A stretch of 23,658 bases of DNA, taken from assembly GCA_938084195.1 (NCBI GenBank), contig CALKDJ010000130.1, positions 1-23,658 of the forward strand. The letters are read 5' to 3'. A program made the position numbers and the translations under genes. This DNA comes from an uncultured Methylophilaceae bacterium. Its GTDB lineage: Bacteria; Pseudomonadota; Gammaproteobacteria; Burkholderiales; Methylophilaceae. Shown here in pieces: positions 3,281-20,623 of this stretch (positions within the stretch are counted from its first letter, which is position 1; each line of letters begins with the position of its first letter). The notes under the pieces are model-generated. The model saw only the letters and a list, made by a program, of their open reading frames with translations. It was not told the DNA's origin and ran no database searches.

Positions 3281-4207
3281 TTATAATGCCTCGCATAATT
3301 TTCTGCCAAAACGAGTAATTTTTCGCTTGCCATCTATTTCTATTAAGTTTTTATTTAGTAAATAAAGTTCGTGATCTCTTTGTAGTGCGGTTTTGCTTAA
3401 ACCAATTTTAGCTGATATACCTGTTAGTGTAGCTTCATGTACTTTTTGTAAAAATTGTAATATTTGTTTTTCTGTATGAGTTAATCCATGTGGCAAGATG
3501 CCTACTTTGTCGGATAAATCTGCAAAGTGTTCTGAATTAAAATCATAGCTTTCTTTAGAGCCACAATACAGGGTGATTTCTTTTGCTCTTTTAACTGCAC
3601 TTCTAGCATTCCCTCTGATAGTAGTAGCTACCTCCGCCAAGCAATCATCTGAAAACAAGACTTCGGGTGCACAAATTTTAACAATTTCAGAAAGCTCATC
3701 TTTGTTATATGCCTCGAAATCAATAGTTGTTAGCCTGTCCTTTAGGGGTGGAAAGATTTTGTCAGTTTCAGTAGTGGCGAAAATAAAAGTTTGTTGTTTG
3801 AAGTTGAATTCGAAATTCATACCATTCCACTCAAAATTTTTGCGAGAATTTGTTTCCGCATTAAATATAGTTAAAAAAGCCATAGTTAAATCTTTTGGTA
3901 AGGCATGGCATTCATCAAACAATATAGTTACTTCGTTATCAGCTATAATTGGTAAAAATATTTGCTCGAAAAATTGCTCGTTATTTTTAATTGTAGAGCA
4001 ATTTAATTCAAGAAAAGTGCGTTTTTCTCCATCTTCGTTGTGAAGATTTTTAGCAAATGCTTTCGCAAATTCAGTCTTGCCTAGACCTTTTGCTCCCGCC
4101 ATAAGCAAAAATGGAGCTTGAGATGTTTTATTAAAGGCATCAATATAAAATGATAATTTTTTCTTAACGGCGTTTTGACCGATAAGTTCGGGGAAATAAT
4201 TACTCAT
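3281..4207 (-). CDS. RuvB-like AAA+ ATPase with winged helix
   Basis: 308 residues. Visible AAA+ landmarks: Walker A GAKGLGKT (38-45), Walker B ILFDECHAL (Asp98, Glu99), sensor 1 FIFATTE (about 141-147), arginine finger in LKDRL (Arg158), then a helical lid and a C-terminal winged-helix stretch (TEKQILQFLQ, LSKTALQRD, ITRFGR). The order and the ATT-E..I.PPLKDR motif match RuvB, the Holliday-junction branch-migration motor, more than DnaA or clamp loaders. It is shorter than cellular RuvB and the lid is divergent. Its cytoplasmic role would be branch migration or recombination-coupled replication. No RuvA or RuvC partner is visible in the window. It starts two bases after an AT-hook-like protein gene, in one operon. 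Confidence 0.75.
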   Translation of the reverse strand: MSNYFPELIGQNAVKKKLSFYIDAFNKTSQAPFLLMAGAKGLGKTEFAKAFAKNLHNEDGEKRTFLELNCSTIKNNEQFFEQIFLPIIADNEVTILFDECHALPKDLTMAFLTIFNAETNSRKNFEWNGMNFEFNFKQQTFIFATTETDKIFPPLKDRLTTIDFEAYNKDELSEIVKICAPEVLFSDDCLAEVATTIRGNARSAVKRAKEITLYCGSKESYDFNSEHFADLSDKVGILPHGLTHTEKQILQFLQKVHEATLTGISAKIGLSKTALQRDHELYLLNKNLIEIDGKRKITRFGRKLCEAL

Positions 4208-6843: not shown

Positions 6844-7416
6844 TCAATAATTGCTTGGTAATTTTTCATTTTCAGCCTCAATCATATTGTATCTTTCGTG
6901 AATTGAGCGATGAATGTGATCTCTGATTCTATTTAATGTGGCACTAACAGAACCGACCGGTCTAGACACTATTTTAGAAATTTGCTTCAACTGAAGCGAC
7001 CTTCTAAACCTTAGAAAAGCTATAGTTTTCATATGTGGTGGCATATTTTGTATGCAATGAATTAATGCTTTCCGTTGCATCTCTTCAGTTTTAAAATCTT
7101 TCGGTTCTTCGCTAGATGCAGTATCAGTTATTTCATTGCATAGGAGTACTTTATTTCTGTTGTATTTTGTTTGGTAGCCCATTATTTGAAACTTAGCGAT
7201 TGTCAATGCCCAATTATAAAAACTTTTGTTTGGGTTATATTTGTCTCTTTGCTGATGAAGTTTTAAGAAAGTCTCTTGCAGCACATCTTTAGAATCACTC
7301 TCATTAAAAACTCTAGCGGATATAAAAGCTAGTAAATAAGGTTGTATTTTTTCAAGCTTGCAATCGTAATTTTTGCAACTATTTACTTCGTGTGCTGGAG
7401 TTGTTATAATAGCCAT
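6844..7416 (-). CDS. ECF-type RNA polymerase sigma factor
   Basis: 190 residues. Region 2 covers about residues 23-80: YLLAFISARVFNESDSKDVLQETFLKLH, then FYNWALTIAKFQIM, the ECF form of the core-binding and -10-reading helices. Region 4 covers about 117-170: CIQNMPPHMKTIAFLRFRRSL, then the helix-turn-helix with RPVGSVSATLNRIRDHI. There is no region 1 or 3, as in ECF factors. RPVGSVSATLxRIR is a signature I associate with Planctomycetes/Verrucomicrobia ECF factors. It would redirect host polymerase to phage genes, probably later ones. It has its own promoter of host type (TTGACA-16-TATAGT), consistent with early expression. No anti-sigma gene is visible. Confidence 0.85.
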   Translation of the reverse strand: MAIITTPAHEVNSCKNYDCKLEKIQPYLLAFISARVFNESDSKDVLQETFLKLHQQRDKYNPNKSFYNWALTIAKFQIMGYQTKYNRNKVLLCNEITDTASSEEPKDFKTEEMQRKALIHCIQNMPPHMKTIAFLRFRRSLQLKQISKIVSRPVGSVSATLNRIRDHIHRSIHERYNMIEAENEKLPSNY

Positions 7417-14282: not shown

Positions 14283-14475
14283 CTAATTTAATGTTGTTTT
14301 TTCTGCAATATGCATAACTGTATCCAGCTTTAAATGCAAACTTATCTACAAAGACACAAGCAGCAATAATTATTAAGCCTCTAATAGGGTCAATGCCTGA
14401 GTTATAAAATAAAACAAATAAAATTATAACATATGGGCAGAATTTATTTAAAGAATAATTTATTATGGCATTCAT
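14275..14475 (-). CDS. Small membrane protein
   Basis: 66 residues from ATG 14475, which sits one base after the dUTPase stop (TAA-C-ATG); a start at 14502 would overlap dut and is rejected. Two hydrophobic stretches: YVIILFVLFYN (about 15-25) and GLIIIAACVFVDKFAF (about 33-48), followed by a soluble tail YSYAYCRKNNIKLDD. It resembles short phage membrane proteins of unknown role, and no family is recognised. Coupled to dut and the WYL-like gene. Confidence 0.6.
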   Translation of the reverse strand: MNAIINYSLNKFCPYVIILFVLFYNSGIDPIRGLIIIAACVFVDKFAFKAGYSYAYCRKNNIKLDD

Positions 14476-14476
14476 G

Positions 14477-14908
14477 TTATTTTCCTGTGCTCCCGAATCC
14501 ACCAGAAGATCGATCTGATTCAGAGAGCTTATCTACTTCTACTAGGTTAATTTTAGGCAATCTAATAAATACTATTTGGCCAATTTTATCTCCAGTTTTA
14601 TATTTTTTGTCGCTATCGTCAATTGAGAAACGTAGTTTGATTTCTCCTCTGTAGCCGCTATCAATAACACCAACAGAGTTTCTTAGCATATGTTTGGTAT
14701 TTGATATACTAGATCTTGGGAATATTAAGCCAACATAGCCTTCAGGTATTTGGACAGCGATATCAGTTTTAGCTTCAACAAAAAGGATACTGTCAATGCT
14801 TGGCGGATAATCAAAACCAGTGCAAAACAAATCGAAACCTGCATCAGAATCGTGTGCTCGCTCTGGAGCTTTTGCATTGGAGCTTAACTTTTTAAATTTT
14901 ACGTCCAT
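14477..14908 (-). CDS. dut: dUTP diphosphatase (dUTPase)
   Basis: 143 residues, normal for the trimeric all-beta family that converts dUTP to dUMP and pyrophosphate. All five motifs are visible: 1 PERAHDSDAGFDLF (15-28), 2 FPRSSISN (63-70), 3 NSVGVIDSGYRGEI (77-90) with catalytic Asp83, 4 GDKIGQIVFIRL (106-117) and 5 RSSGGFGSTGK at the C-terminus, which closes over the active site. Motif 2 has PRSS rather than PRSG. It limits uracil in phage DNA and supplies dUMP for dTMP. It overlaps the preceding small gene by one base (TAATG) and is the second gene behind a consensus promoter. Confidence 0.95.
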   Translation of the reverse strand: MDVKFKKLSSNAKAPERAHDSDAGFDLFCTGFDYPPSIDSILFVEAKTDIAVQIPEGYVGLIFPRSSISNTKHMLRNSVGVIDSGYRGEIKLRFSIDDSDKKYKTGDKIGQIVFIRLPKINLVEVDKLSESDRSSGGFGSTGK

Positions 14909-15120
14909 TATCTAATTTTCTCTGGAATAGATGTGAAAACAATGTGCACACTGTCTTTTTCGTGAGGGCTATACTTTTTAACCATGTCGATTAAAATATC
15001 AGCCCTGTATGTGGCATCGTTTTGTGTGTGATAGTTGACTTCTTCGACTCTTCTACCCCCTCGTGTTACGACATAAACAGGGTTTGGAGTTTTTAATACA
15101 TTTTTACGGATAATTCTCAT
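14908..15120 (-). CDS. Hypothetical 70-residue protein upstream of dut
   Basis: Starts MRIIRKNVLKTPNPVYVVTR. Basic N-terminal half with a strand-like VYVVTRGGRRVEEVNY, then a helical segment DATYRADILIDMVKKY and a final strand SVHIVFTSIPEKIR. No known motif. It is the first gene behind the consensus promoter at 15138-15166 and is coupled to dut by TAATG. It may be an early protein. Confidence 0.6.
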   Translation of the reverse strand: MRIIRKNVLKTPNPVYVVTRGGRRVEEVNYHTQNDATYRADILIDMVKKYSPHEKDSVHIVFTSIPEKIR

Positions 15121-15137
15121 AATTAATTAAAAAATAA

Positions 15138-15166
15138 ATTATAGCATAATACAATTAATAAGTCAA
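15138..15166 (-). promoter_or_regulatory. Consensus promoter of the dut operon
   Basis: CTTGACT with the -35 hexamer at 15166-15161, 17-bp spacer ending in TGC, TATAAT (15143-15138). It lies immediately downstream of the tmRNA 3' end and drives the leftward operon from 15120. Confidence 0.85.
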
Positions 15167-15184
15167 GACTTTTAATAAACAAAA

Positions 15185-15549
15185 TGGTGGACGTGGCGGG
15201 AGTTGAACCCGCGTCTTTAAGTTTTCAAGCATACACTTCTACAAGCTTAGTTTATTTTTTTTAAAGTTATGATATAAACATCCAACTAATTGTTTTAATT
15301 ATTTACAGTTTATAAAACAAATAAAAATGTATCTGTTTTACAGATAGATGACCCGCATGAATTTATCTGCGTCAACACATGCGAGTTGGCGGGTGTTAAA
15401 CTGCCATTTCGAGACCCAACTCGACAGAGTCAAGGTCTACAACACACTCGTAAGATTCGGCATGTATAAATTTGCGTCTTATTAAGGAGCCGGACGCTCT
15501 CCTGCTTGCCGTGAATGAATCCAAATTAAATCAAATCCAGAACACGCCC
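15185..15549 (-). ncRNA. ssrA: tmRNA (transfer-messenger RNA)
   Basis: 365 nt, single-piece form. The 5' end GGGCGTG (from 15549) pairs over seven bases with CACGTCC before the discriminator A and encoded CCA (3' end 15185). The T-arm GCGGGTTCAACTCCCGC is intact, and the 5' side has the TGGATTTGA block typical of the tmRNA D-loop region. The tag stop codon lies in the loop of hairpin CGAGTTGG/CCAACTCG, like helix 5 of E. coli tmRNA. With SmpB it would free stalled ribosomes and tag their products. A possible weak -10 (TAATAT) lies just upstream of the 5' end; otherwise it is processed from the upstream transcript. Confidence 0.95.
15396..15461 (-). other. tmRNA tag reading frame
   Basis: Predicted resume codon GCC (15461-15459), 21 residues, TAA stop (15398-15396). 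The peptide begins AESYECVVDL and ends LGLEMAV. Support: U at -5 and A at -4 before the resume codon as in E. coli, stop placed in a hairpin loop, and a small hydrophobic end. An alternative GCA resume frame starting ANLYMPN lacks the -5 U and the hairpin-loop stop. Confidence 0.65.
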
Positions 15550-15570
15550 ATAAAATATTAAAGAACAAAA

Positions 15571-16683
15571 TTATTTTTGAAATTTCACATCACTATCCTG
15601 AGCTGCCAGATTACTTCTTCTGGCAGATTCGTATAGTGCATTGTAAATATCAGATACTTTTTTATACTTCTTTTGAGCCATTGCAATCAACTGTTCTGCA
15701 GTCATTCTTGCGGGATCTTCTGGATCAAACAATTTAAGTATAGCGATATCTCGATCTGTTACATCAACTTCCCATTTAATTTGATAACCAAAGTCTGGTA
15801 TTGGTGCTGATAGTTCTTTGGCATGCCTTGATGAACCAGCCTCTTTAGGCTCTGACCAAGTAAATACAGGTACTACCCCATTCCATGTTTCGTGAAAAGC
15901 TCCAATATTTACTTGAGGATCAATAGTTCCGTTTTCAATCGTTGAGGGATTAAGTTGATCGTAAAGATTATTGAATGCCAAAGGAAAACCAAAATCATGC
16001 TCTTCATAACAGTAAACGTGAAGGTATTTAAATAAATTAAATGCACTCCAAGAGCCTGAGTCAGCATTCTTTAGCACCAGTCTCCTTTGTGTATTTGAGG
16101 ATAATTCTTTAAAGTTTTTGTAAAAATTATCAACAAAGTCACAATAATGATCGTGGTCATCTTTCTCTGGTTGAGAATTTAACTGAAGTAAAATGGGTGC
16201 TGATATATTTTCTTGTGCACCAAGTGAATCCAAAAACCAAGAATAAAAATCCAACTCTTTGATTGACCTTTGAATCGTAAGTTCATCACTGTCTATTAGC
16301 TTGCAAAACTTATCAGGTTGTATGGAGACAGAGACACCTTTAGTTATGGATGTTCTGCCGATGTCCCTAATAGCTTCTAGAAGAATTTCTTGTTTTGGTA
16401 AATCTTCAAAAGAAATATCAAAAGAAGGATCTGCAAGCAGCCCGAAAAGTGACAAATTTAATCTATAATGATCAATCCCTTTGTCTCTGCAGAAATGAAT
16501 TACCTTAGATGTGAGCTCAAGGTTATGAATAAGGTCTGCCACCAACTGATTGATAGCAGCCTTATCCCCTTGCTCTCGTGATAAATCTGAGAATTGTTTC
16601 TTGCTAAGACCTCTGAAGGCATTAGAAGAATCTTCTTCCTGTAGAATTTTAGAGATGCAAATTAATCCATATTTTGTATTCAT
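15571..16683 (-). CDS. UvdE paralogue, predicted catalytically inactive
   Basis: 370 residues that align along the whole barrel with the intact UvdE at 950-1969: shared GLICIS, DHYRLNLSLF, IQRSIKEL, RLVLKNAD, NNLYDQLNPS, VFTWSE, RHAKE and KWE. Yet the active-site positions are changed: His124 to Gln122, Gln127 to Lys125, His169 to Gln167, Glu205 to Lys205, Asp237 to Asn238, His240 to Tyr241, His278 to Thr275, and Glu316 to Asp307. There is no frameshift or stop, and the C-terminus is longer (MTAEQLIAMAQKKYKK and onwards). This is a maintained pseudoenzyme, perhaps a lesion binder, DNA-binding regulator or interaction partner. It ends 22 bases before the tmRNA and follows a DUF736-like gene by 16 bases. 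Confidence 0.85.
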   Translation of the reverse strand: MNTKYGLICISKILQEEDSSNAFRGLSKKQFSDLSREQGDKAAINQLVADLIHNLELTSKVIHFCRDKGIDHYRLNLSLFGLLADPSFDISFEDLPKQEILLEAIRDIGRTSITKGVSVSIQPDKFCKLIDSDELTIQRSIKELDFYSWFLDSLGAQENISAPILLQLNSQPEKDDHDHYCDFVDNFYKNFKELSSNTQRRLVLKNADSGSWSAFNLFKYLHVYCYEEHDFGFPLAFNNLYDQLNPSTIENGTIDPQVNIGAFHETWNGVVPVFTWSEPKEAGSSRHAKELSAPIPDFGYQIKWEVDVTDRDIAILKLFDPEDPARMTAEQLIAMAQKKYKKVSDIYNALYESARRSNLAAQDSDVKFQK

Positions 16684-16699
16684 ATGGAAATATTACACA

Positions 16700-16954
16700 T
16701 TAAATAAGATCTGGCTCTTCAACTTGCTTCTTTTCTGGAGCAGAAGTCGCCATCTCTTCCTTAGCTTGATGCTTGTAAACTCTGAAGTATGGAGCTTTGT
16801 CGTTCTCTTCGTGAGACTTATTCTTGAAGACGACTACCTTTTCACCGTTTATAGAACCTGTTAGGTATTTACTCCCGTCAGATTGTTTGACATTAATCCA
16901 AAGTGCTCCGATTTCTCTATCGGTCCATTCATTTTTTTCTTTATTATCAGTCAT
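16700..16954 (-). CDS. DUF736-like small protein
   Basis: 84 residues. The core EIGALWINVKQSDGSKYLTGSINGEKVVVFKN and then APYFRVYKH matches the pattern IG.LW....G.KYLTG.I......VVF.N......P.FRVY of DUF736-type single-domain beta proteins common in phages and mobile elements. The biochemical role is unknown; a nucleic-acid-associated beta-barrel is plausible. The C-terminus is a charged disordered tail (EEMATSAPEKKQVEEPDLI). No Shine-Dalgarno; start context AATTATTATG. Confidence 0.7.
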   Translation of the reverse strand: MTDNKEKNEWTDREIGALWINVKQSDGSKYLTGSINGEKVVVFKNKSHEENDKAPYFRVYKHQAKEEMATSAPEKKQVEEPDLI

Positions 16955-16959
16955 AATAA

Positions 16960-17034
16960 TTATTGATTGTGGTTAACTACAAGTATGATACCTGTTAGTA
17001 TCATTAAAGTAAAGTAAAATATATTAGCATCCAT
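16960..17034 (-). CDS. Possible 24-residue single-TM peptide
   Basis: ATG overlaps the upstream stop as TAATG (17034), and TAA ends it at 16960. The product is MDANIFYFTLMILTGII followed by LVVNHNQ, one clean transmembrane segment with polar ends. It fills an otherwise empty 79-base gap. Very short, so only the coupling and hydrophobicity support it. Confidence 0.4.
   Translation of the reverse strand: MDANIFYFTLMILTGIILVVNHNQ
16985..17004. repeat. Perfect 7-bp inverted repeat
   Basis: ATGATAC - CTGTTA - GTATCAT, a perfect palindrome with a 6-base centre lying inside the putative 24-residue ORF, upstream of the DUF736-like gene. It could be an operator or an RNA hairpin; no T-run follows, so it is not a terminator. 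Confidence 0.4.
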
Positions 17035-17570
17035 TATCTGTATTCTTTTCTTAATAATCTCCATCTATCTGAGTCAATTGGTTTTGTGCCATCATCTATA
17101 CTATACAACATTTCTAGTATTTCGTCAAGACTATTATAAATATATTTATGAGGCAACATTCCAAGCATCCACAAGGGGGTTTTTGTTTTACCGCCTTCCA
17201 TGCTTACGAAAATTGGTTTTTTTTCCCTGACCGCTGTAACTATTTCTTCAGCACTTCCCCAGCTTGCTACATCTGGAACAAGGTGGGCGATAATAAAATC
17301 GCTACGATCAACTAAATTTAAATCATAAGCTCGAACCATTTTCATTTTATCTGCAACTCGGTCATATTGCTCCGTTTCCAGCCAAAATTCCATTTCGCGC
17401 CTAGACCCTTCATCTTCTTCAACATCTTTCATGAATGGTTTTTCGTAAGGGTTGAAACAAGTAATAGATAGTTTGCTCAATTTCTCTGTTACCTCGTGCC
17501 GCCAATCACGACCACTGAGATATTGCATGTGGCCTACAAGATATGTTTTGGTTTTGTATAACAAATTCAT
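17034..17570 (-). CDS. Nucleoside 2-deoxyribosyltransferase-like protein
   Basis: 178 residues. Starts MNLLYKTKTYLVGHMQYL, then WRHEVTEKLSKLSITCFNP, DLNLVDRSDFIIAHLVPDV, SWGSAEEIVTAVREKKPIF and PLWMLGMLPHKYIY. The Rossmann-like order with D-x-x-L-x-D-x-S-D-F and GS-x-EE fits the nucleoside 2-deoxyribosyltransferase-like family (PF15891 type), which exchanges or hydrolyses the deoxyribose-base bond. The Glu of SAEE would be the nucleophile by family analogy. It is probably in nucleotide salvage or base modification. A promoter ends 6 bases before the ATG. Confidence 0.75.
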   Translation of the reverse strand: MNLLYKTKTYLVGHMQYLSGRDWRHEVTEKLSKLSITCFNPYEKPFMKDVEEDEGSRREMEFWLETEQYDRVADKMKMVRAYDLNLVDRSDFIIAHLVPDVASWGSAEEIVTAVREKKPIFVSMEGGKTKTPLWMLGMLPHKYIYNSLDEILEMLYSIDDGTKPIDSDRWRLLRKEYR

Positions 17571-17576
17571 GCCAAT

Positions 17577-17605
17577 ACACTAGCATGAACAAAAACAAAA
17601 GTCAA
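17577..17605 (-). promoter_or_regulatory. Promoter with extended -10
   Basis: CTTGACT with the -35 hexamer at 17605-17600, 17-bp spacer ending TGC, TAGTGT (17582-17577). ATG 17570 follows after 6 bases, so the transcript is nearly leaderless. Confidence 0.65.
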
Positions 17606-17614
17606 GAAAAAAAA

Positions 17615-17953
17615 TTAAGAAACTATAATTTTGCCGCCAAATTCTTTGTGGTGTGGACAGCTATACTTGTATTCACCTTTTTCGAGTAACTGTAATACTT
17701 TAACATTGTCGTCAGTATCTTTGCCGATGCTCTTAAAAACTACTTTGGCATCTTTATCTTCTACAAAAAAATTATGGTTAGAGCAATTATAAATTATTAA
17801 TTCATCATTGATTTTTAAGTTGATGACGGGGTCTAAGCCATTAAAGTCTCCTTTGAGTAAGAAATCTTTATCAGAATTGCACAATGAAACACGATATGTG
17901 TTATTAGGAGGTGTCCATGAATTTGGTAATGGTATAGAATTTGGTTTACTCAT
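17615..17953 (-). CDS. Cupredoxin/plastocyanin-fold protein
   Basis: 112 residues. After a Pro/Asn-rich start (MSKPNSIPLPNSWTPPN), the beta core includes NLKINDELIIYNCSNHNFFVE with His60, and the C-terminal loop YKYSCPHHKEFGGKIIVS with Cys99 and His101/His102. This matches the plastocyanin-type H ... C-x-x-H copper site, but the usual axial Met position is Gly107, and there is no signal peptide or lipobox. It could be a copper-binding variant or a fold reused structurally. It begins 6 bases after the giant tail-protein gene, suggesting it is expressed with, and may decorate, the virion. Confidence 0.7.
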   Translation of the reverse strand: MSKPNSIPLPNSWTPPNNTYRVSLCNSDKDFLLKGDFNGLDPVINLKINDELIIYNCSNHNFFVEDKDAKVVFKSIGKDTDDNVKVLQLLEKGEYKYSCPHHKEFGGKIIVS

Positions 17954-17959
17954 AATATT

Positions 17960-20623
17960 TTAACTGTCAGAACTGTCGCCTGGCTCACGATACCAGTTAT
18001 TGTTACTGGAATTAAAGGAACTTTGTGGTGGGCCGATTCGGCCAATATCCGGATAACTGACAAAATAATCACGACTAGCTAGTTTAACATTTTGACCCGG
18101 CATCATTGTGAAACTTTCACCAATACTGATTTGAGCAAATTGATCTGCCCATACCGAAATAATTGTGTTACTACTAGCATTCCAAGCAGTGCCAACATGA
18201 GTACTACTGAAGCTACCGATACCATTTGCACTTGTGGAGGCACTTTTCAGTAAGGAATCATAAAACGAACCACTGTTCATGTGCCCATTAGTTTGGCCAG
18301 ATCCATCTGCAAGCCCTCTTGTGTTTGAAAAAGTAATGTTTGCATAGCTAAAGGCAGCATTACCTGTTTCGAATTTAGAGGCATTATAAACTTTAAATAT
18401 CACTGGAGCTTTAAAGCTAGACCCCCAATGAAATCGAGAATTATCATGAAGGCCGTCTTTCTGCATGTGAGCCCAATATTCGTTGCCCAGCATTAACCAT
18501 CCATCTTCAATATCAAAAATAGTAAAGAAATAAACATTGTCGTCGCAATAAAAAGCCATGCCATGCTTGCGTTTGCCAGTATTGTAGGGATCATGTATGG
18601 TTGCTCCCCAGGTGCTGTCAAATACCCTGACCCAACAATCGCCAACAAGCTCAAATGCTGAAAATGCCTCTTTGTGTCGGTTGCTTTCAGGTAGGGCTTT
18701 GTAGTGAACATCAACATAATTTATGTTGCACTCAAACGGAGTTACTCCTCCAAAACGTAAAAAACCTGCTTGATACCCTTCTCCATTTGTTTTGCTGCCC
18801 AAAGTTAGAACAAATTTAATACCAATAATATTTAAAATCTTTTCAACACTGATCCAGCAGTGAAAAGCATTATAATAATATGGATCATCGCTGACTGGCA
18901 TTGTGCATCTTACCACACATCTGTTGGTGGCATTTAACCCTCCCCAACTTCTATTATGGTTGAAGCGCTCGCTGCTATATTGCTTGCTCCATAGAGACCC
19001 TGCGTTCCATGGACTGTCTACACCAAAAGGATCAAGTCTTATGCTTGTACCGTTTCCTTGGACAGAATTTATTAACCAAAGCCCAGTGCTGTCGACCGAA
19101 AAAGCTAAGTGAGAATTATGAGGAGTAAGTCTAACCCAATTTGAGAGGTCAGCATTAGGGCGAGTAGAAGAAGTATGACTACGTATGCATCTATAAACCT
19201 CATGATCTTCAGGGCCAGATTGATTGTCATAATCTTTGTTGTAAACACAATTTCCCGCAACATAAGAATAACCTGATCGCCAAATTTTATCACCATGTCC
19301 TCCTGAAGCATTTAATTCAAGCATCATACAAAAGAAATTGTAATCGATTATGGTAAGGTCTTCAATTCCGCCATACACCCCAAATGAATCGGTGTGCGCT
19401 ACATCCCCCTTAATTAAGACGTAGGCATTTCCTCCTGCAGGTACATCGTTTTGTAAAGAACGTAGTGCTGCCCTTACGTTGTTAAATTCATTGTTATAGG
19501 TTTTTCCTATCGTTATTGATTTTCTGCCAGCCGTGCTACCTCCTAATGCAGTATAGTCTACTTTAAAGTCAATAATGGATCGATTAGTCCAATTGTATTC
19601 TCCTGCAGCCAGGCTATATGCACTGCTATTTGAGCTAACAATTGCATAGTAATTTTTAGCATTGTCACTTTTTGCGATTGACAACTGTTTGGTCTTATAC
19701 TGGACCTCAGGATTTACATTACCATTTATTTCACAATCAACTTCTTGATAACCTGAGTTGTAACATGTTTCCAGGATTTCTAAACCACTATCTGGCGATA
19801 TTAATGCATCAAGATTTTCTGCGGTAACAGGGGTGGTTTCATTATAAACAGGTGTTTCCTTTGTGCCATCTCCATCTAAATCTTGCCACTCTATTTCACT
19901 GTGTATTTGTTTTTTTGGGTTGGCCACTTCTTGGCCGTCGGAACCCACTACCGTGTCAGCCGTTTCCTCTTGTTCGGCGGCTTTTTCTATGTGGTATTTT
20001 TCAATCAAAGATTTGACAGAAACTTTTTTATTTGAGCTTGAAGAAACATCCACAACACCAATCATATCGTCAAGGGCGACAGAATCAGATGATCCGAAGA
20101 CAGGAAGTGTTGCTAGATCAAATTTATTGTCCCAAAAAAGGCCGGCGCTATTAACAGAAAGCACTTTACCGATTTGTGCGGAGCTAAAAGCTGGCCCGCC
20201 TACATCAGTCCAAGTTACCAGGGGTTTATGCCAAATTAAATTATTACCTTCAACTTTTAAATATTTTCCAGAATCGTCCTGGGCATTGGTAGTGTCGTAT
20301 AATGGAGCTTCTTTGATTGCGGCCCAGTTGAGCAATCGATTCTCGGATTGTCTTTCCGAAAACTCAGTTTCGGTACCTGTGAGAACAGCATTTTCTCCCC
20401 AGTATAGAACACCCTGAACATTATAAAGCTTATCTGTAAGTAATGTATTGAGAGCTGTGTTATCAGGCATTCTTCCCAGGGTAATATTCTGATCGAAAAT
20501 AGCATACTCCTTGAATCTGCCTCTGTAAAAATACCCTTCTGCCCAAGAATATTGAGAAGTACCGATGAAGCCTGATTTGTCAGAATTTGGTTGAAACCTA
20601 CTTAAATGTATATTATCTGCCAT
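17960..20623 (-). CDS. Large tail-fibre/adhesin-like structural protein
   Basis: 887 residues. N-terminal MADNIHLSRFQPNSDKSGFIGTS resembles virion-attachment ends of fibres, followed by repeated YLKVEGNNLIWHKPL / VLSVNSAGLFWDNK modules (about 121-167). A short DLDGDGTKE (about 248-256) looks like a calcium loop. Residues about 446-499 (KIWRSGYSYVAGNCVYNKD, EVYRCIRSHTSSTRPN, NWVRL) match a CBM5/12-like carbohydrate-binding module. The C-terminal half is aromatic and beta-rich. There is no enzymatic motif that I can name. It starts two bases after the next giant gene's stop and is followed by the cupredoxin gene; the three form a late structural operon. Function in host-surface binding is inferred. 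Confidence 0.7.
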   Translation of the reverse strand: MADNIHLSRFQPNSDKSGFIGTSQYSWAEGYFYRGRFKEYAIFDQNITLGRMPDNTALNTLLTDKLYNVQGVLYWGENAVLTGTETEFSERQSENRLLNWAAIKEAPLYDTTNAQDDSGKYLKVEGNNLIWHKPLVTWTDVGGPAFSSAQIGKVLSVNSAGLFWDNKFDLATLPVFGSSDSVALDDMIGVVDVSSSSNKKVSVKSLIEKYHIEKAAEQEETADTVVGSDGQEVANPKKQIHSEIEWQDLDGDGTKETPVYNETTPVTAENLDALISPDSGLEILETCYNSGYQEVDCEINGNVNPEVQYKTKQLSIAKSDNAKNYYAIVSSNSSAYSLAAGEYNWTNRSIIDFKVDYTALGGSTAGRKSITIGKTYNNEFNNVRAALRSLQNDVPAGGNAYVLIKGDVAHTDSFGVYGGIEDLTIIDYNFFCMMLELNASGGHGDKIWRSGYSYVAGNCVYNKDYDNQSGPEDHEVYRCIRSHTSSTRPNADLSNWVRLTPHNSHLAFSVDSTGLWLINSVQGNGTSIRLDPFGVDSPWNAGSLWSKQYSSERFNHNRSWGGLNATNRCVVRCTMPVSDDPYYYNAFHCWISVEKILNIIGIKFVLTLGSKTNGEGYQAGFLRFGGVTPFECNINYVDVHYKALPESNRHKEAFSAFELVGDCWVRVFDSTWGATIHDPYNTGKRKHGMAFYCDDNVYFFTIFDIEDGWLMLGNEYWAHMQKDGLHDNSRFHWGSSFKAPVIFKVYNASKFETGNAAFSYANITFSNTRGLADGSGQTNGHMNSGSFYDSLLKSASTSANGIGSFSSTHVGTAWNASSNTIISVWADQFAQISIGESFTMMPGQNVKLASRDYFVSYPDIGRIGPPQSSFNSSNNNWYREPGDSSDS

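Follow-up and report, generated by a model that had tools for sequence, protein, structure and literature searches.

A phage UvdE relative without its metal site is kept under strong purifying selection, in a fixed gene place and with shifted constraint

Two genes of the UV endonuclease family UvdE lie on the stretch of phage DNA analysed here (the window, 23,658 nucleotides, contig CALKDJ010000130.1), one of them catalytically complete (the active copy) and the other, at 15571–16683, devoid of its metal site (the dead copy); all window features named below are on the minus strand. The dead copy has lost the metal site and is nevertheless under strong purifying selection, it keeps a fixed place among the genes of related phages, and its constraint has shifted away from the catalytic face. 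Protein docking is its most likely function, to judge from sequence comparisons.

The dead copy is an open reading frame (ORF) of 370 codons (370 aa) with no internal stop. Its alignment to the active copy spans 330 columns, of which 29% are identical (E 4e-49). Among nine active-site positions the active copy retains all nine and the dead copy a single one, H290. The replacements, in active-copy numbering, are H124Q, Q127K, H169Q, E205K, D237N, H240Y, H278T and E316D, corresponding to Q122, K125, Q167, K205, N238, Y241, T275 and D307 of the dead protein itself. Thus codon 122 (16318–16320) has Gln for a metal ligand His, codon 125 (16309–16311) has Lys where the active copy carries the lesion-wedge Gln, and ligands are substituted by Lys at codon 205 (16069–16071), Asn at codon 238 (15970–15972), Tyr at codon 241 (15961–15963) and Thr at codon 275 (15859–15861). 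The ligand and wedge roles of these aligned positions are those we take to hold from the Thermus and Sulfolobus UVDE structures (His101, Gln104, Glu175 etc.), and they agree with PDB titles (E175A, K229L, 3 metals) and with the alignment. As an unselected yardstick, all nine residues are retained in 118 of the 120 closest active-copy relatives among the matches listed. The intact frame and all eight substitutions had been listed in a preliminary description of this DNA, and both are confirmed. Only H169Q is rare within the window's subclade, where it occurs in P0003 and in the window copy and all others have His.

Membership of the family is clear from the Pfam UvdE profile (PF03851), which scores 59.7 bits on the dead copy against a gathering cut-off of 24 (E 3.4e-16). 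The NCBIfam equivalog TIGR00629 gives 67.8 bits, below its cut-off of 124.45, which the active copy (96 bits) does not reach either. Structure prediction gives the dead copy the UVDE fold, a triosephosphate isomerase (TIM) barrel, in which the set of metal ligands is incomplete, eight of nine active-site positions being replaced. A model of a second dead lineage (A3, 17 sequences) reached a predicted local distance difference test (pLDDT) value of 62.5, with a C-terminal part too poor for judgement. The weak likeness of residues 175–228 to Lem17 chain 9va7 (E 0.002; profile E 0.0029) was taken as chance.

Scans of IMG/VR found the dead copy on 16 contigs of 24–200 kb, with an open frame in every case; disrupted sister copies were looked for and none was seen on these contigs. 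The ratio of nonsynonymous to synonymous divergence (dN/dS, Nei-Gojobori, listed only for pairs above 68% amino-acid identity) was 0.032, far from 1, in both pairs of dead copies with a Jukes-Cantor-corrected dS below 1 (G003/G004, dS 0.39; G014/G015, dS 0.48), and 0.033–0.082 in five pairs with dS of 2.6–4.6. The active copies of G014/G015 gave 0.108. Most dead-copy pairs are at or close to saturation in their synonymous sites; between G003 and G006, for instance, the proportion of synonymous differences (pS) is 0.80, yet the proteins are 88% identical. The earlier proposal of a full-length pseudoenzyme held by selection, as opposed to junk, is therefore upheld by the dN/dS values and the undisrupted copies.

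The gene place was compared across 16 loci (15 of the 16 IMG/VR contigs plus the window), the names dUTPase and resolvase being taken from library matches. Upstream of the dead gene there is a nucleoside deoxyribosyltransferase-like gene in 16/16 loci (17034–17570 in the window), separated by at most six ORFs, and the 84-aa protein directly upstream (16700–16954) belongs to a cluster found in 12 of the 16, window included. Downstream come variable inserts, with the dUTPase cluster (14477–14908) in nine loci and a cluster of similar length in four others, together with small proteins and a Holliday-resolvase-like protein, the latter in all 16. That this slot might be an ancestral one, shared with tail-bearing active UvdEs (see below), was considered but found no support, as the actives in L194–L196 occupy other neighbourhoods.

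The shift of constraint was measured as column entropy in 89 dead sequences. Their nine active-site columns have a mean entropy of 1.67 bits, against 0.65 bits in 25 control columns, each with at least 95% conservation among actives. Sequences counted as active in the entropy comparisons all carry the unaltered pattern HQHEDHHHE, and their perfect conservation at these positions therefore comes from the way they were chosen; four near-active rows and seven rows that were odd or had been inactivated on their own (P0087, P0088, P0154, P0123, P0132, P0137 and P0141) were left out of the sets, and 60 tail-bearing actives (mean identity 0.60, against 0.56 in the dead set) served as a diversity-matched control. 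From actives to dead proteins, entropy rose from 0.58, 0.35 and 0.76 to 1.21, 1.31 and 1.71 bits in the loops after strands 3, 5 and 8, which we assigned to the catalytic face from the DSSP string. It fell from 1.07 to 0.79 in helix 214–229 (LFKYLHVY..E, 15997–16044), from 1.16 to 0.66 in helix 256–267, from 1.86 to 0.69 in the following loop 268–272 (helix and loop: GAFHETWNGVVP, 15868–15918) and from 1.17 to 0.74 in a C-terminal motif. In a ranking of windows over the whole protein, the losses reach the 89th, 97th and 92nd percentiles and the gains on the two helices the 12th and 7th, because of which the latter are, taken alone, only suggestive. By TIM-barrel topology both helices should lie side by side on the barrel's outer surface, remote from the DNA groove. 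Histidines and glutamates conserved on outer helices in the dead clade (H177, H222, E227 and E265) were noted when an alternative metal site was considered, and on the catalytic face W212, N239, D242 and N245 are still conserved.

The C-terminal motif is [FY]N.[LI]Y, in the window YNALY (codons 347–351, 15631–15645). Dead proteins terminate with it behind a helical or disordered stretch. Many active phage UvdEs have it at their end as well, in their case often preceded by a long linker of polar residues. Within 247 proteins of at least 290 aa (cellular loci L111–L186 thinned to every sixth), it is present in 96/96 with a broken active-site pattern and 61/151 active ones. A second count covered the 314 proteins of at least 290 aa among 323 retrieved (the matches listed were the best 120 of 537 and the best 120 of 1131), "intact" meaning all eight metal positions, Q127 excluded, and "tail" a motif starting after residue 290: 170 were intact without a tail, 61 intact with a tail, 82 broken with a tail and one broken without (P0270, with one His changed to Leu). 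Both samples are best matches to three queries, and the figures are counts of retrieved proteins, not family-wide rates.

Outside the main dead clade the site has been lost separately, with the tail kept, in P0087/P0088 (64–65% identical to the active P0082), P0154, P0123/P0132/P0137 and P0141, partly by loop deletion in P0154 and in P0123/P0132/P0137. Representatives of the first three groups fall at different places in the tree, and a single clade of all dead rows is rejected (approximately unbiased (AU) test, p 5e-47). The tail has thus been retained through at least four separate inactivations. In P0123, P0132 and P0137 the loop bearing His290 is lost and Asp237 is changed to Asn, with the rest of the site kept; they are possibly early stages of inactivation.

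The active copy (950–1969, 339 aa, identified by Pfam match and alignment) has neither the helix motifs nor the tail. It is present in the window and on nine of the 16 contigs, always downstream of the dead gene and on the same strand. The distance between the two genes is 22–44 kb on the contigs, whereas in the window it is about 14 kb. Its position, unlike that of the dead gene, varies: between the same two families in six of ten regions, elsewhere in G031 and G014/G015, and at the contig end in G010. In nine of ten hand-chosen locus pairs every other gene has a larger synonymous difference, and in L001/L021 there is a tie. Between the window and G009, for example, pS is 0.41 for the active copy and 0.72 for the dead copy, with 11 other syntenic genes at 0.53–0.90; the active proteins are 87% identical and the dead ones 41%. 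Such low synonymous difference fits lateral exchange of the active copy between phages. A tree was built from the 81 rows left by thinning at 72% identity, with the nine active-site columns taken out. In it 21 dead rows group in a single clade (Shimodaira-Hasegawa-like approximate likelihood ratio test, SH-aLRT, 99) and the nine active partners in another (100); their union into a single clade is rejected (AU p 1e-4, the groups having been named after the tree was seen). The preliminary description lends itself to the picture of a duplicate pair of one phage lineage, in which one copy became inactive next to its parent. That picture is not upheld: the single clade is rejected, and the dead gene appears to be the older resident.

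A search of 5.8 billion proteins with the dead protein found 85, including the window's own (eight of them incomplete, with the active site covered in part), and a full active site was seen only in P0082 and P0083. The subclades differ in their replacements, mostly QK.KN[FY]T.D in the window's group, and YSKQ.AL.D, HGEDDHRHD and F.RQDNVRD in others, while a further one has kept D237/H240 and lost E205 and H278. At the wedge position there is K, Q, S, I, G, L, A or Y, Gln being retained within the window's subclade by three members (P0006, P0007 and P0040), and the YSKQ subclade has also lost the aromatic residue after the wedge. No match to the dead protein was found at E 1e-5 in 50,697 records of isolated phages, and the isolate relatives of the terminase of the longest contig, G001, are all remote (about 22–23% identity in the best rows). 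Several genes of the dead family are named UV endonuclease in the JGI annotation. Among the open-access papers that the literature searches listed, none describes a catalytically dead UvdE; phage UvdE is mentioned as an endonuclease in passages of a jumbo-phage survey (PMC10152775) and of a vibriophage paper (PMC7824862).

Since the metal site is lost and constraint is strong on the outer helix face and the tail, protein binding is the most likely role. We consider it moderately probable that the dead copy is a docking or scaffold pseudonuclease of UvdE fold, which would descend from an active, tail-bearing phage UvdE. Its metal centre would have been lost once, early in a lineage of large marine phages, the gene being then kept as a core gene. 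The outer face (helices 214–229 and 256–267 with the loop to 272) and the [FY]N.[LI]Y motif would bind at least one protein partner, perhaps in the phage replication or repair machinery, and nicking by the UVDE mechanism would not be among the protein's activities. A wider version is more tentative, and we regard it as somewhat doubtful: tail-bearing phage UvdEs may in general have a second, non-enzymatic job that matters more to the phage than nicking, probably docking to a phage complex, may on account of it have become pure adaptors at least four times, and in one lineage the adaptor may have turned into a core gene, UV repair passing to an exchangeable second UvdE.

A sliding-clamp docking motif was considered for the tail and set aside, as among ORFs of at least 60 aa (225 in G001, 191 in G003) the dead copy alone has the tail motif within its last 30 residues. 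With a looser aromatic motif the counts slightly exceed chance (15 versus 10.2 expected and 14 versus 11.2), and no partner emerged from it. Another 12 phage loci (402 ORFs, counting UvdEs) were scanned, and there the motif is absent from the last 25 residues of every ORF other than UvdE.

Among other explanations, the one that survives best, although we find it unlikely, is a non-cutting binder of lesions or DNA structures comparable to alkyltransferase-like proteins, in which the UVDE groove would shield damage or recruit host or phage repair. Here the new role anticipated earlier divides: the selected pseudoenzyme stands, and the loss of constraint on the catalytic-face loops speaks against lesion binding or protection, although several residues of that face stay conserved. 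The wedge is moreover mostly replaced and varies by subclade, and the aromatic residue next to it is not always kept. Net charge of the dead proteins averages -16, which is not decisive as a test of DNA binding, the partner actives being acidic too (-3 to -15). We rate as improbable a prozyme-type regulator that binds and activates or inhibits the phage's active UvdE or the host UvsE. UVDE works as a monomer, and the active copy seems to be exchanged among phages whose dead copies can be as little alike as those of the window and G009, so that no tight co-adaptation of the two is apparent. On the other hand, the active gene is present on 7/7 contigs whose sequence continues for 34 kb or more beyond the dead gene on its downstream side, the seven contigs that lack it having at most 32.6 kb, and dead paralogues that activate an enzyme, as well as a viral pseudokinase/kinase pair, are known (PMC3663545, PMC6395007). 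A new enzyme, with a metal-independent activity in the TIM-barrel pocket, has still less to recommend it. The substituted residues are mostly near-fixed in the window's subclade (Q/K/H/K/N/F or Y/T/D) and TIM barrels of the same superfamily, fold neighbours of this one, serve many reactions, but the pocket differs between the subclades listed above and its columns are more variable than the controls, which would not be expected of a conserved catalytic site. Finally, a decaying remnant retained by chance or recombination, for which the loss of 8/9 active-site residues might speak, is contradicted by the selection data, the open frames and the fixed gene place, and we give it practically no credence.

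The repeated loss of the active site with a persisting C-terminal motif suggests that large marine phages have a protein interaction so far overlooked, for which the tail or the helix patch is a handle to identify the partner. It also speaks against annotating genes of the dead family as UV endonucleases. The family comprises active, partly broken and dead members and is a test case for the change from enzyme to scaffold.

Next to the dead gene the window has a transfer-messenger RNA (tmRNA) gene at 15185–15549. The adjacency noticed earlier is real, but a functional link finds no support: ARAGORN detected a tmRNA in seven of 15 related loci and none in eight, and apart from the window there are just two loci, L001 and L008, in which it comes immediately after the dead gene, which makes the link a local feature. 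The window tag is unusual, ending in EMAV, and tags in related loci vary widely (AE/AR..EMAA or EMVA; GNK or GAK..ALAA). In related phages tmRNA genes are also found elsewhere (L024:7976–8338, L025:3502–3886), as if mobile. Promoter-like sites in 14400–18000 are at chance level (15 observed, 14.7 expected), and the idea of a different operon with separate timing was not borne out.

Other genes of the window include 438–944, with a weak match to the DarG antitoxin, a DNA ADP-ribosyl glycohydrolase (27.5 bits, cut-off 250); its cluster is found in 9/10 active-copy regions and adjoins the active UvdE in four, and its product possibly counters a DNA ADP-ribosylation defence. At 3281–4207 there is an AAA ATPase with matches to RuvB N- and C-terminal domains and a PHROGs score as clamp loader, also with its cluster in 9/10 active-copy regions. 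A phage sigma factor of the extracytoplasmic function (ECF) type is encoded at 6844–7416 (TIGR02937, 68.5 bits, above the cut-off of 42.9); its best match is the Rhodopirellula/Verrucomicrobium subfamily TIGR02989 (101 bits, below 124.55), which may hint at a Planctomycetes- or Verrucomicrobia-like host. The 112-aa protein at 17615–17953, ending SCPHHKEFGGKIIVS, has no Pfam or NCBIfam match, and we take this ending to be cupredoxin-like. On G001, a small protein resembling single-stranded DNA-binding protein (SSB; L092:16038–16445) has the C-terminus EDEMPF, presumably akin to the bacterial SSB tip.

With UvdE/UvsE (PF03851; SacUVDE 3tc3/4gle, TtUVDE 2j6v) the dead copy has in common the predicted fold and the scaffold motifs, whereas it has no metal centre, its lesion wedge is mostly replaced and its constraint is strongest on the outer helices and the C-terminal tail. 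The tail-bearing active phage UvdEs (such as P0082, P0089 and P0090) share with it the terminal motif and in some cases the helix motifs LFK[YW].H.Y and AF..TW, but differ in their full active site and in the long linker that often precedes the tail. Alkyltransferase-like proteins likewise lack a catalytic residue and keep the lesion pocket, unlike the dead UvdE, whose catalytic-face loops lost constraint; they are relatives of a repair enzyme (PMC10779285). Pseudoenzymes of repair nucleases are a known kind, of which the UvdE one, recurrent and linked to a tail, is a new variant. Closest as a precedent are CDC45 and inactivated archaeal RecJ, in which catalysis was lost more than once, the gene neighbourhood is conserved and a structural part in the replication complex is proposed (PMC3307487). 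The dead UvdE, too, comes from a repair nuclease with catalysis lost repeatedly and with gene place and selection kept, although its fold is unrelated and its partner in replication or repair a putative one.
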